Assembly: GCA_026986115.1 (NCBI GenBank)
Contig: JALSPG010000049.1
Location: forward strand, 1-49,068
DNA: 49,068 bases
Source of the DNA: Thermodesulfobacteriales bacterium
GTDB taxonomy: Bacteria > Desulfobacterota > Thermodesulfobacteria > Thermodesulfobacteriales > Thermodesulfatatoraceae
Direction: 5' to 3'
Every line of letters begins with the position of its first letter. The stretch's first letter is position 1. The notes beneath the pieces were generated by a model. The model saw only the letters and a program-made list of their open reading frames with translations, did no database searches and was not told the origin of the DNA. Below, piece after piece: positions 21,528 to 28,580 of the stretch. The translations under genes and the position numbers were made by a program.

Positions 21528-21736
21528 TTTTTATAATCTAAGTATATAGTAAATATTAGAAAAATAAGATGTAAATCTATAAGGAAAGCTGATAGATCCT
21601 AAAAAACCCTGAAATTTCTCGAAAGTCTTATTTTGCAGATTCTATGTTATTCTAGTTTTGCTTCATTCTTAAGTGGAATGCTAGCCCTTGTTTCTTTTCT
21701 GTTATAAAGTTTAATCTTTGCGCCGAGGAGGGAATG

Positions 21737-23335
21737 ATGGAAGTTACACTTCTGGATTATGGTGCGGGGAACGTAAGAAGTGTTATCAATGCTCTGGAGA
21801 AACTGGGAGCACAGGTAAAAATAGTCAAGAAACCAGAAGATATTCTGAAGGCCTCTAGGCTTATCTTTCCAGGAGTAGGGAATTTTGGCTCTCTCATCGA
21901 AACTTTGCGTCAGAAAGGATATTTTGAAGCCCTCAGACGCTATTTGGCCGAAGAAAGGCCTTTTTGGGGCATTTGTTTAGGGCTTCAGGCCCTTTTTGAA
22001 AGATCAGAAGAAGCTCCAGAAGTAGAGGGCCTGGGTATCTTTAAAGGATATGTCAAAAAGTTCGACCATAACCTTTCCATACCTCATATAGGTTGGAACG
22101 GGATTAAACCCCTCAAACCTTCACCGGTCTTTAATGGCCTTTCTGGCGAAGAAAAATTTTATTTCGTCCATTCCTATCATGTGGTTCCTAAAGATTCAGA
22201 AATCATTCTTTGCACCACAGATTACGGCTACGAATTTGTAAGTGCAATCCAAAAAGGAAACATCATTGCTACCCAATTCCATCCTGAAAAAAGTGGGCAA
22301 GAAGGGCTTAAAATCCTTAGAAACTTCCTTGAGGCCACTTTACCCCCAGTAAAACCTCCTAAGGCCCCTAAAAAGACCAAACTCGCCAAGCGAATCGTAG
22401 CCTGCCTTGATGTACGTACCAACGATGAAGGGGATCTGGTGGTCACCAAGGGAGACCAATATGACGTCCGTGAAAAAGGACGGGTCCGAAATCTTGGAAA
22501 ACCAGTAGAATTAGCCCGAAGATATTATACTGAGGGGGCAGATGAGATTACATTTTTAAATATTACGGGCTTTCGAGATTTCCCTCTGAAAGATCTTCCC
22601 ATGCTGGAAGTCCTGCGTCTCACCTCCCAAAACGTTTTTGTTCCTCTTACTATCGGTGGTGGAATCAGAGATTTTATGGATCGTGACGGACGCTTTTATT
22701 CTGCTTTAGAAGTGGCTGCGGAATATTTCCGCTCTGGGGCCGATAAAGTCTCTATCGGAAGTGATGCGGTTCTCATTGTCGAAGAATATTTACGCACCGG
22801 AAAAGCTACAGGTAAAAGCTCCATTGAAACTATTTCCCGGGTTTACGGGGCACAGGCAGTGGTAATCTCCATTGATCCCCGTCGGGTCTATGTGGACTCT
22901 CCTTCCAAGACCAAACATCCCGTAATTGAAACTCAAATTCCCGGCCCCAATGGTGAACGTTACTGTTGGTTTCAATGCACTATCAAAGGGGGACGGGAAG
23001 GACGAGATCTTGATGCCATTACTTTAGCCCAGGTTTGCGAAAAACTCGGCGCTGGTGAAATTCTATTAAATAGTATTGATCGGGACGGGACAAACCGAGG
23101 CTTTGATATTGAACTTATTCAGGCGGTTAAAGAAGCTATATCTATTCCTGTAATCGCCTCCAGTGGAGCGGGGTGTCCCGAACATTTTTACGAGGTATTT
23201 ACCAAAACCGGGGCAGAAGCGGCCCTTGCAGCAGGTATTTTCCATCGCCGAGAGGTAAGTATTGAAGAGGTCAAAAAATTCTTGCAAAATAAAGGGGTTG
23301 AAGTCCGGCCGGTTTTTAAGGAAGAGCTCCTTTAA
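21737..23335 (+). CDS. hisHF: Fused imidazole glycerol phosphate synthase: HisH glutamine amidotransferase + HisF cyclase (HIS7-like)
   Basis: N-terminal LLDYGAGNVRSV..FPGVGNFGS..GICLGLQALF..ATQFHPEKSG; C-terminal IVACLDVRTNDEGDLVVTKGDQYDVREK..TIGGGIRDF..ADKVSIGSDAV..EILLNSIDRDGTNRGFD..IASSGAG. One ORF, linker about PPVKPPKAPKKTK. Confidence 0.95.
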   Translation: MEVTLLDYGAGNVRSVINALEKLGAQVKIVKKPEDILKASRLIFPGVGNFGSLIETLRQKGYFEALRRYLAEERPFWGICLGLQALFERSEEAPEVEGLGIFKGYVKKFDHNLSIPHIGWNGIKPLKPSPVFNGLSGEEKFYFVHSYHVVPKDSEIILCTTDYGYEFVSAIQKGNIIATQFHPEKSGQEGLKILRNFLEATLPPVKPPKAPKKTKLAKRIVACLDVRTNDEGDLVVTKGDQYDVREKGRVRNLGKPVELARRYYTEGADEITFLNITGFRDFPLKDLPMLEVLRLTSQNVFVPLTIGGGIRDFMDRDGRFYSALEVAAEYFRSGADKVSIGSDAVLIVEEYLRTGKATGKSSIETISRVYGAQAVVISIDPRRVYVDSPSKTKHPVIETQIPGPNGERYCWFQCTIKGGREGRDLDAITLAQVCEKLGAGEILLNSIDRDGTNRGFDIELIQAVKEAISIPVIASSGAGCPEHFYEVFTKTGAEAALAAGIFHRREVSIEEVKKFLQNKGVEVRPVFKEELL

Positions 23336-24077
23336 AGACTTCTTCCGCTAAAACTACTGGACCTTCAGTACATACGTGCAAAAATTTTCCGTCTGCTTTG
23401 GGCACTGTACACCCTAAACACATCCCCAGGCCACAAGCCATCCGAGCTTCAAGAGATAAAAAGGCTTTAAGGCCGAACGTAAAGGCCAAATCACTTACGG
23501 CCTTAAGCATGGGTAGCGGACCGCAAGCATAGATAACTCCCTGCGGAGATTTTTCTAAAAAGGAACGTAAAGGTTCGGTAACAAAACCCCTTCTGCCTGC
23601 CTTTCCGTCCTCTGTAGCTAAAAAAATTTCTACCCCTAAAGTTTCAAACTCGTCCAGTAAAAGGAGTTCGGTAGCTGTTTTTGCTCCGTAAAAAAGATAA
23701 ATCTTTTGTCCCTGTGCTTTGAGTTGTTTAGCTAAAAAAAGAAAGGGGGCAATACCAATTCCACCTGCCACTAAAATGGCTGGCCCGACAGAAGAAAGAT
23801 CAAACCCACGTCCTAAAGGACCTAGGACCTGGATTTCGTCTCCTTCTTTTTGTGTTGCAAGAATTGCTGTTCCCCGGCCCTTAACTTGGAAGAGGATACT
23901 AAAAGTAGTTTCATCTTGATCATGAACCGAAAAGGGCCTGGCAAGCAGGGGATCAAACCCCGGCCAGGCCTTTACCATTACAAACTGTCCTGGACGGGCT
24001 CCGATGTTTCCCCTGAGACGGAAACGAAAAAAGCCCGGCGCCAGGCATTCATTTTTTAGCAAGGGAAAAGTACGCAT
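23316..24077 (-). CDS. pyrK: Dihydroorotate dehydrogenase electron-transfer subunit
   Basis: RPFSVHDQDETTFSILFQVKGRGT; LVAGGIGIAPFLFLAKQL; YACGPLPML; ARMACGLGMCLGCTVP. Confidence 0.9.
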   Translation of the reverse strand: MRTFPLLKNECLAPGFFRFRLRGNIGARPGQFVMVKAWPGFDPLLARPFSVHDQDETTFSILFQVKGRGTAILATQKEGDEIQVLGPLGRGFDLSSVGPAILVAGGIGIAPFLFLAKQLKAQGQKIYLFYGAKTATELLLLDEFETLGVEIFLATEDGKAGRRGFVTEPLRSFLEKSPQGVIYACGPLPMLKAVSDLAFTFGLKAFLSLEARMACGLGMCLGCTVPKADGKFLHVCTEGPVVLAEEVFKGALP

Positions 24078-24602
24078 TTAAAGCCCTTTCTTTTCCAGAA
24101 AAATACAAAAACCCAGAAGAATAAGGCTAAAGATAATCCCAGCCAGTGCAGGAGATACACCTAAAAGGGAAGGTATTGTCACCTTACCCAAAGCCCCTAC
24201 GGAGAGGACTTTTTCTTTCCAAAAATCATAAGTATGAGCAAAGACAATGGCCCCGAAAATACCACCGAGAATACCAAAAAAGCCATCAAGAGCCCCCTCA
24301 GCTAAGGCCCCCCCTGTAGTTCCGGGACAATATCCCAAAAGGGCCCATCCGAAGCCATAGATAATTCCTCCCAAAATGTTTGCCAAGAAATAGGTGGGTT
24401 TTACGGCGTAATGAATGAAACCAAAATGAGCAAGGAGATTAACCGCAAAACTCCCCACAATAACTCCGCTGAGGAGAAACTTGAGAATAGTAAAATCTTT
24501 TAGGGTAAGAAGGCCAATATGTTTTTCGAATCGCAATATTCTGGCCCGCTGAAAAATGTACCCCCAGATGAGACCAGTTAAAAAACCTAAAAGGAGCTCC
24601 AT
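24078..24602 (-). CDS. YeeE/YedE (sulfur transport) family half-size membrane protein
   Basis: GGIIYGFGWALLGYCPGTTGGALAEGALDG; multiple TM; adjacent paralog. Confidence 0.85.
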   Translation of the reverse strand: MELLLGFLTGLIWGYIFQRARILRFEKHIGLLTLKDFTILKFLLSGVIVGSFAVNLLAHFGFIHYAVKPTYFLANILGGIIYGFGWALLGYCPGTTGGALAEGALDGFFGILGGIFGAIVFAHTYDFWKEKVLSVGALGKVTIPSLLGVSPALAGIIFSLILLGFCIFLEKKGL

Positions 24603-25127
24603 TTATTTCCTCCTCCTATATAGGATTAAAGCCAAAGGTATTCCACCGATGAAAAATCCCATCACTGTTAAAAATCCTGAAAGAGAGAGTTGTGACATAC
24701 CTGAAAGACCGTGACCACTGGGGCAGCCACCGGCGAGCCTAGCACCATAAACAATGAGAAAGCCACCTACAAAAGCCATAAAGGCCCTCAAAGCAGCGCG
24801 CTTACCAAAACGTTCTTCCCAGAGCGATGGAATTAAATGCAGACGAAATTCTCCATTTTTAAGAGCGGCAAGAAGGGCCCCTAAAGGAACCCCTACAAAA
24901 ACCAAAGCTACTTTCCAATCTACTTCGGGCTTATATTTCTGATAGTAAGAGAAGTGTTTTGCTTGCGAAGAGAGTTTATCTTCAATCAGCCCTGCCACCC
25001 GCACGTAGGCTGTAGAGGTGCCCAAATATTTAGGCTTACCCAAAAACTTTTGGGTCACCAGGACTGAAACCACCAAAAGTAGACCTGTCAAAAAACCGCC
25101 GAGATAAGGAGACCAACCGTTTTTCAT
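24603..25127 (-). CDS. YeeE/YedE (sulfur transport) family half-size membrane protein
   Basis: GARLAGGCPSGHGLSGMSQLSLSGFLTVMGFFIGG motif. Confidence 0.87.
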   Translation of the reverse strand: MKNGWSPYLGGFLTGLLLVVSVLVTQKFLGKPKYLGTSTAYVRVAGLIEDKLSSQAKHFSYYQKYKPEVDWKVALVFVGVPLGALLAALKNGEFRLHLIPSLWEERFGKRAALRAFMAFVGGFLIVYGARLAGGCPSGHGLSGMSQLSLSGFLTVMGFFIGGIPLALILYRRRK

Positions 25128-26185
25128 GCTTTTCCTCCCCCTTCAAAAAATTTCTGCATCACCTGCGCCATCTTTTCTGGCAGGATAAGGATTAATTCTG
25201 AAAAGAGTTGCCGTTGCAAAAAATAGTCATCGGTACGGTAATTTTCATAAAAATTTTGCCGGGTTATAAGGCGTAGTTGGGGCACAAACCATGGGGTATT
25301 TTCACCAAGAGGGGGTAAAAAGAGAGTAAAATTAAAGGATCCATATCCCATTTCTTCATAACCTTTAAGACATGCACTTATCCCACGTGCCAAATCAAAG
25401 ACGTCTTCTTGAGTAATTTCGGAAAGCCCTTTTGCGCCTTCGACAAGGGCTATAATTTCATTTCCTCCCAGGGGAGCAAAACTTGCTAAAAAGACCACCC
25501 TTCCAAACTGGCCAATGAAGCGTTCCCCCTCTTCTCTTTCTCTGATTGCCAGTTCTTCCCAAAAGTTTTTGCCATTTTGGGTATAATAGAGAAAGCTTTT
25601 CTCTAAGAGCCGTTTCTGTTGCGGAAAGGCCTCTTTGTTAGCTACCACCTGAAAATGAGGATGAACCAGACTTGCTCCAGCTGGTGGCAAAAAATTGGCA
25701 CAAATACATCCGAAACGCATAGCCGGGTCTTCATCAACTACGAGACGCAAAAAATCAAATCCCAAAGCCAAACCATCAGCAACAAGTTCGGGGGGAAAAT
25801 CCTTGAGTTTCCTGAAGTGGGCTTCTCCTACGGCAATAACAGCGTGCCGCGGTGCCGTAGGGAAAAGATTGGGAAACAATGTGCATTCTCCCCTTAGCAA
25901 ACGCCCCTCGACAATAAAATCTTCCGGATACCGAGGCGTTATTTCTCGTACTTTAGGAGGGCACATAAAACATTGCTCTCGGCTAGCTCGGGCTATTTTT
26001 TCTACAAGCGACCAATCATGTTTTCCGAAAAAGAGCCTTACTTTATCTTCTAAGGCCGGGTTAAAAACGGCAAAATGATCTAAAAGAGGATCAAAACGAA
26101 TCTCTACCTCCTGGCTTTCTGGAACAAAATCCTTCAAAGGATTATGAAAGGTTTTGATGTGTTTTTCTTTCCGAAACGAAATCAT
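25124..26185 (-). CDS. GalT-like HIT-superfamily nucleotidyltransferase
   Basis: Met at 26185 (MISFRKEKHIKTFHNPLKDF...); CMCPP-like pair (EQCFMCPPKVRE); LFPNLFPTAPRHAVIA; active-site-like SLVHPHFQVVAN (HxHxQ). 4-bp overlap with the next YeeE gene. Confidence 0.8.
   Translation of the reverse strand: MISFRKEKHIKTFHNPLKDFVPESQEVEIRFDPLLDHFAVFNPALEDKVRLFFGKHDWSLVEKIARASREQCFMCPPKVREITPRYPEDFIVEGRLLRGECTLFPNLFPTAPRHAVIAVGEAHFRKLKDFPPELVADGLALGFDFLRLVVDEDPAMRFGCICANFLPPAGASLVHPHFQVVANKEAFPQQKRLLEKSFLYYTQNGKNFWEELAIREREEGERFIGQFGRVVFLASFAPLGGNEIIALVEGAKGLSEITQEDVFDLARGISACLKGYEEMGYGSFNFTLFLPPLGENTPWFVPQLRLITRQNFYENYRTDDYFLQRQLFSELILILPEKMAQVMQKFFEGGGKA

Positions 26186-26271: not shown

Positions 26272-28580
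<2,309 letters not shown>

Follow-up and report, generated by a model that had tools for sequence, protein, structure and literature searches.

A non-galactose transferase of the GalT superfamily beside a PmpAB-type transporter pair in a Thermodesulfatator-type bacterium, and the association of its subclade with APS reductase

In positions 1 to 49,068 of contig JALSPG010000049.1 of a Thermodesulfobacteriales bacterium (assembly GCA_026986115.1; hereafter the window), a gene for a GalT-like protein runs directly into a pair of YeeE/YedE genes. This raises the question of whether enzyme and transporter form one functional cassette, in which import of a sulfur species would feed adenylylsulfate (APS)/ADP chemistry, as an earlier note on this DNA had proposed. 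We confirmed the observation behind that proposal, namely a GalT-like gene with an HPHFQ motif that overlaps the first of two abutting, half-size YeeE/YedE genes by 4 nt, while its interpretation is partly supported. The note had missed pyrK, with which the tandem comprises four genes. The features concerned are:

23316..24077 (-), PyrK-like dihydroorotate dehydrogenase electron transfer subunit (PRK00054 at 194.8 bits, below the cut-off of 219, plus PF10418)
24078..24602 (-), YeeE-2, half-size YeeE/YedE protein resembling PmpB (N-terminal half; PF04143 at 54.7 bits, profile positions 14-147)
24603..25127 (-), YeeE-1, half-size YeeE/YedE protein resembling PmpA (C-terminal half; PF04143 at 88.3 bits, profile positions 174-308), with the motif GGCPSGHG
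25124..26185 (-), GalT-like protein of 353 aa and 40.6 kDa, member of the RQN/YRxDDYF subclade (ORF, alignment, tree, AlphaFold model, Foldseek)
25214..25261 (-), C-terminal subclade signature, R309-Q-N ... Y316-R317-T-D319-D320-Y-F..Q324 (alignment)
25649..25663 (-), HPHFQ, residues 175-179
25817-25819 (-), H123, candidate third ligand of a GalT-type Zn site (conservation)
25961..25972 (-), CFMC, with C72 and C75 as candidate first two ligands of that site (conservation)
26272..27009 (-), RsmG-like methyltransferase, upstream of the GalT-like gene (named from reading its sequence, without a family search; syntenic in congeners)

The GalT-like ORF starts with an ATG at 26185, behind an AGGAGGG Shine-Dalgarno sequence, and its TGA stop at 25124 shares the four nucleotides ATGA (25124-25127) with the start of YeeE-1. 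YeeE-1 abuts YeeE-2 at a TAA-ATG junction, and YeeE-2 abuts pyrK likewise (24077/24078). On the same strand upstream lie rsmG and pyrG, the listed TTG start of the former overlapping the latter. The genome collection names Thermodesulfatator species and MAGs as close relatives of the window, which bears out the thermophilic host that had been surmised; since the tandem genes are preserved whole and in synteny in most of these congeners, at 64-90% identity, the arrangement is not due to chance. The orthologues of the GalT-like protein in T. autotrophicus and a T. indicus-like genome show 71-72% identity to it. Nearby, HisH and HisF (imidazole glycerol phosphate synthase) are encoded as one fused 533-aa ORF (21734-23335 (+)), conserved in the genus; such a fusion is better known from eukaryotes.

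The GalT-like protein exceeds no Pfam cut-off and meets no NCBIfam model, the best being the GalT model PRK11720 at 27.2 bits against a cut-off of 448; another GalT model gave 15.8 against 102 bits. Profiles built from 14 or 54 relatives do match structures of GalT (5in3, 1hxq, 6k5z, at superfamily level) and ADP-glucose phosphorylase. Aligned to the HPHGQ of E. coli GalT, the HPHFQ motif supplies a Zn-ligand-like H175, a nucleophile-equivalent H177 and Q179, all three conserved at 100% in the subclade described below; C72, C75 and H123 are invariant in the sets A1 and A3, and Ser172 and Asn164 are conserved as well. C72, C75, H123, H175, H177, Q179, N164 and S172 are thus conserved in the manner of the Zn-binding and catalytic residues of GalT. 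The AlphaFold model (mean pLDDT 94.7) has a two-HIT-domain fold, and Foldseek returned ADP-glucose phosphorylase (1ZWJ/2H39, E 2.5e-18 to 3.7e-18) as the best match, GalT next and yeast Ap4A phosphorylase far behind. With its HxHxQ active site, Cys2-His-type Zn site and fold, the protein is a GalT/HIT-superfamily nucleotidyltransferase, as had been proposed, and more precisely, as judged from sequence and model, a nucleotidyl-histidine transferase with two HIT domains.

ADP-glucose phosphorylase At5g18200 (2H39/1Z84) shares the two-HIT-domain fold, the HxHxQ motif, the nucleophilic His and the nucleotidyl-enzyme chemistry and is the best fold match (TM 0.67/0.76), yet is only 16-17% identical; its hexose-binding C-terminus is replaced in the window enzyme, and its HSHSQ contrasts with HPH-F/L-Q. 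GalT itself (E. coli 1HXP/1HXQ, human 5IN3, 6K5Z) shares HPHxQ, the Zn-site Cys and His and the phosphate-site Asn and Ser, but the window enzyme lacks the C-terminal sugar/Fe-site residues and a Leloir partner gene and falls far below the GalT model cut-offs. Ap4A phosphorylases (yeast Apa2, 4I5T; Rv2613c, 3ANO) have HIT-type adenylyl-His chemistry in common with it but match its fold far less well (TM by query length 0.31-0.39).

That the enzyme is a true UDP-glucose--hexose-1-phosphate uridylyltransferase, the GalT of the Leloir pathway, is suggested by the superfamily match and the HPHxQ motif, but the remaining evidence makes this extremely improbable. Its 27 bits stand against a cut-off of 448, and the sugar/Fe-site C-terminus is absent. 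No galactokinase was found in the seven genus genomes searched (the window genome and six congeners, G000-G006), which speaks against GalT. Moreover, the window genome encodes elsewhere (contig C131) a second paralog that is more similar to GalT and ADP-glucose phosphorylase (1.2e-72 to 1Z84) and adjoins a gene of the GH57/DUF1957 type, named from reading its sequence. Because of the missing galactokinase, the lost sugar-site motif and this separate paralog, the window enzyme is almost certainly not the galactose enzyme, in agreement with the original suggestion of a role outside galactose metabolism.

As for the transporter, both YeeE proteins exceed the PF04143 cut-off of 27 bits. PmpA and PmpB are half-size YeeE/YedE proteins, two short membrane proteins of about 130 aa that correspond to the C-terminal and N-terminal halves of a full-length YeeE, each with one key Cys motif (PMC11582611). 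The window pair is alike in consisting of two short membrane proteins that match opposite halves of the profile with one conserved Cys motif each; it differs in length (174 aa each) and in its coupling to a GalT-like gene on one side and pyrK on the other. The same order of halves recurs in several other genomes. Hence, the pair is, to judge from its sequence, an ordinary two-part sulfur transporter of the PmpAB type, neither split nor broken, and its earlier description as a split transporter does not hold. Nor does it match the YTD sulfur-disproportionation cluster (a yedE-tusA-dsrE-chp block); the YTD-like block of the window genome lies elsewhere, on contig C136.

The cassette proposal can be judged from synteny. 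In its favour are the ATGA overlap, the tandem run of genes and the presence of the order GalT-like-YeeE-YeeE-PyrK in seven of the eight genus genomes examined. However, in the single-contig congener G003 a PAP2-like ORF stands where the pair would be, and in the family-mate G008 PyrK directly follows the GalT-like gene; in both, the enzyme and pyrK persist. No YeeE gene adjoins the GalT-like gene outside the genus Thermodesulfatator among the genus, phylum and 80 named loci checked, and beyond the family PyrK, too, is missing next to it at the loci examined. The coupling of pyrK is, furthermore, equally tight. The simplest account is that the YeeE pair was inserted between the GalT-like gene and pyrK, the older neighbour of that gene, or has disappeared from this place; the pair provides no conserved functional link to the enzyme. 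Its position is a quirk of a single genus, and co-transcription with the GalT-like gene would not imply shared chemistry. Since the YeeE linkage is restricted to the genus and missing in G003 and G008, the idea of a cassette that imports a sulfur species for APS/ADP chemistry fails, and we regard it as very improbable; the absence of conserved linkage beyond the genus is an outcome that the earlier note had itself named as refuting.

Two side observations concern YeeE/YedE proteins more generally. In the YedE of the YTD-like cluster (yedE-tusA-dsrE) on contig C136 (L054:2193-3362), an in-frame TGA occurs at VAGG[U]GSGS; it is conserved in four genus genomes, and T. autotrophicus and G008 have Cys at this position. 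The window genome has a tRNA-Sec. In Thermodesulfovibrionales genomes, a full-length YedE carries two in-frame TGA codons at conserved Cys positions, and one such genome encodes a half-size YeeE with GUPSGHG, where YeeE-1 of the window has GGCPSGHG; the loci of these proteins are L282:1481-2575, L283:1306-2400 and L289:585-1250. YeeE/YedE selenoproteins with GUxSG have been listed before (PMC13188914); what may be new is that they occur in the YTD cluster of sulfur disproportionation.

If the transporter does not inform on the enzyme, its own relatives do. The window protein falls in a clade of 35 leaves in a 201-leaf tree (FastTree support 99), which IQ-TREE recovered as monophyletic from 69 rows (SH-aLRT 93). 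Its members come from several phyla: Thermodesulfatator and relatives, Syntrophobacteraceae, Desulforhabdus, Desulfonatronospira, two Nitrospirota, Hydrogenophilus, Thiobacillus, a CSSED10-310 bacterium and an Actinomycetota MAG. They are marked by a C-terminal signature of the general form RQN...YRxDD[YF]..Q, plus E330, located where GalT and ADP-glucose phosphorylase have their sugar-binding motif, with key residues conserved at 94-100%; outside the subclade, R309 and D319 alone persist. The strict motif is found in 18 of the 35 members and in none of the 166 family members outside, and a looser form fits nearly all full-length members. The parent family extends to Asgard archaea, Bathyarchaeota, Chloroflexota and Peptococcaceae. 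A separate observation is that genomes of one genus (g48, family f41) carry up to three diverged sister-clade copies each (L200, L202, L204, L205, L209, L213, L219, L220, L223, L224, L226, L229, L235).

The hosts of this subclade have a metabolic feature in common. AprA (APS reductase) scored above cut-off in 25 of 28 subclade hosts, compared with 39/128 in the remainder of the family, and in 27 of 28 once fragments in G000 (the window genome) and G115 are included. Although a first search found none in the window genome, we rejected its absence: the AprA N-terminus lies at the edge of contig C126, where it is truncated. Sat is also present in this genome, so that the window organism does carry dissimilatory APS genes, and full AprA occurs in Thermodesulfatator congeners, while none was found in congener G002 (a MAG, 83% complete). 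The G115 copy is likewise a truncation, of 138 residues. The one of the 28 hosts that is left with no detected AprA is the Actinomycetota MAG, and in its member the QN of the signature is missing too. Raw leaf counts give a Fisher p of about 1e-8, which overstates the association because the hosts are related; counted by family within the phylum, AprA is present in 7/7 subclade-carrying families versus 44 of about 95 (P 0.0035), and the association recurs outside the phylum sample in Nitrospirota, Thiobacillus and Hydrogenophilus. The signal is confined to the subclade: across 297 genomes of the phylum, no association was seen between AprA and the family as a whole (37/109 vs 81/188, p 0.14). 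Most AprA genomes of the phylum do not have the subclade, which is therefore dispensable for APS metabolism.

Gene neighborhoods count against a link with APS. A tblastn search over the fetched loci found no sat, apr, tusA, dsrE or other sulfur gene adjoining subclade members; the nearest apr is the aprBA of Hydrogenophilus, about 12 kb away. In Thiobacillus (L073:1383-5085) the subclade gene adjoins phosphoketolase and acetate kinase genes, and in Hydrogenophilus (L072/L295) phosphoketolase, aprBA and acetate kinase are on its contig. In G041 (L290, G041:C32:1-20000), a paralog from outside the subclade (L046) has sat and aprBA-qmo at distances of about 6 kb and 9 kb, respectively; we do not use this proximity as evidence because no apr was seen within 20 kb of the same paralog in G115 (L291).

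Based on these observations, we tentatively favor, at somewhat less than even chances, a non-galactose two-HIT-domain transferase whose likeliest reaction would be APS + Pi -> ADP + sulfate. A nucleotidyl group, probably AMP, would be transferred to His177 with release of a small acidic leaving group, and the nucleotide would then pass to phosphate or another acceptor; with APS as the substrate, this would amount to an APAT-like (adenylylsulfate:phosphate adenylyltransferase) APS drain or salvage step. We infer the adenine specificity, the substrate and the direction, and APS is put first because the subclade is nearly confined to bacteria with APS reductase. This association is the best reason for the APS idea and is independent of the YeeE argument. 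An APS- or adenylyl-transfer role is accordingly plausible, on grounds other than those of the earlier note. Against it, an APAT would waste APS in a sulfate reducer; as an energy drain, its role there would need salvage, regulation or metabolism in the reverse direction. Moreover, co-inheritance can mimic a link to APS, since the hosts are related or share habitats.

An alternative that we hold to be about as likely, and thus also at less than even chances, is a nucleotide-salvage phosphorylase acting on an NDP-sugar, Ap4A or another adenylylated metabolite rather than APS, whose spread among sulfate reducers would reflect common descent and the exchange of genes between organisms living together. 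The gene lies between pyrG/rsmG and pyrK, a setting that fits nucleotide metabolism no less well than sulfur; the parent family, with its wide distribution, has no AprA association; and the nearest solved fold is an ADP-glucose phosphorylase. Yet the sugar-recognition C-terminus has given way to the private RQN/YRxDDYF signature, and the subclade alone is strongly AprA-associated, including two Pseudomonadota and two Nitrospirota.

The APS-directed activity has a precedent in the APAT ("ADP sulfurylase", EC 2.7.7.5-type) of Thiobacillus denitrificans (Bruser et al. 2000, J Biol Chem 275:1691, cited in PMC8232776). Both APAT and the window enzyme are GalT-related, and a Thiobacillus MAG has a subclade member with 43% identity to the latter. 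The APAT subunit is presumably similar in size to the window enzyme. However, the commoner GalT-like protein of Thiobacillus (L167) is ADP-glucose-phosphorylase-like and nearer to the other paralog of the window genome (36% identity to L055). Thiobacillus thus offers two differing GalT-like paralogs, both of them APAT candidates, whose subunit masses (40.6 vs 41.6 kDa) do not discriminate between them. Because the subclade type is the rarer in this genus group (one of six genomes, versus four of six for the ADP-glucose-phosphorylase-like type), the APAT known from experiment may be of the latter type.

A broader proposal, which we consider possible but on the unlikely side, is that the RQN/YRxDDYF subclade as a whole forms an unrecognised family of adenylyltransferases specific for APS (APS phosphorylases), present in several phyla among both sulfate reducers and sulfur oxidisers and providing a Sat-independent exit for APS. 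An ADP-forming APAT activity from APS has been measured in several sulfur oxidisers while its gene is poorly assigned, and the private acceptor-side signature, together with co-occurrence with AprA across phyla, marks the subclade as a testable gene candidate. If the proposal is wrong, the subclade would still represent a distinct GalT-superfamily specificity that annotation pipelines likely mislabel as galactose metabolism; if it is true, both sulfate reduction and sulfur oxidation would gain a phosphate-dependent branch at their energetic hub.
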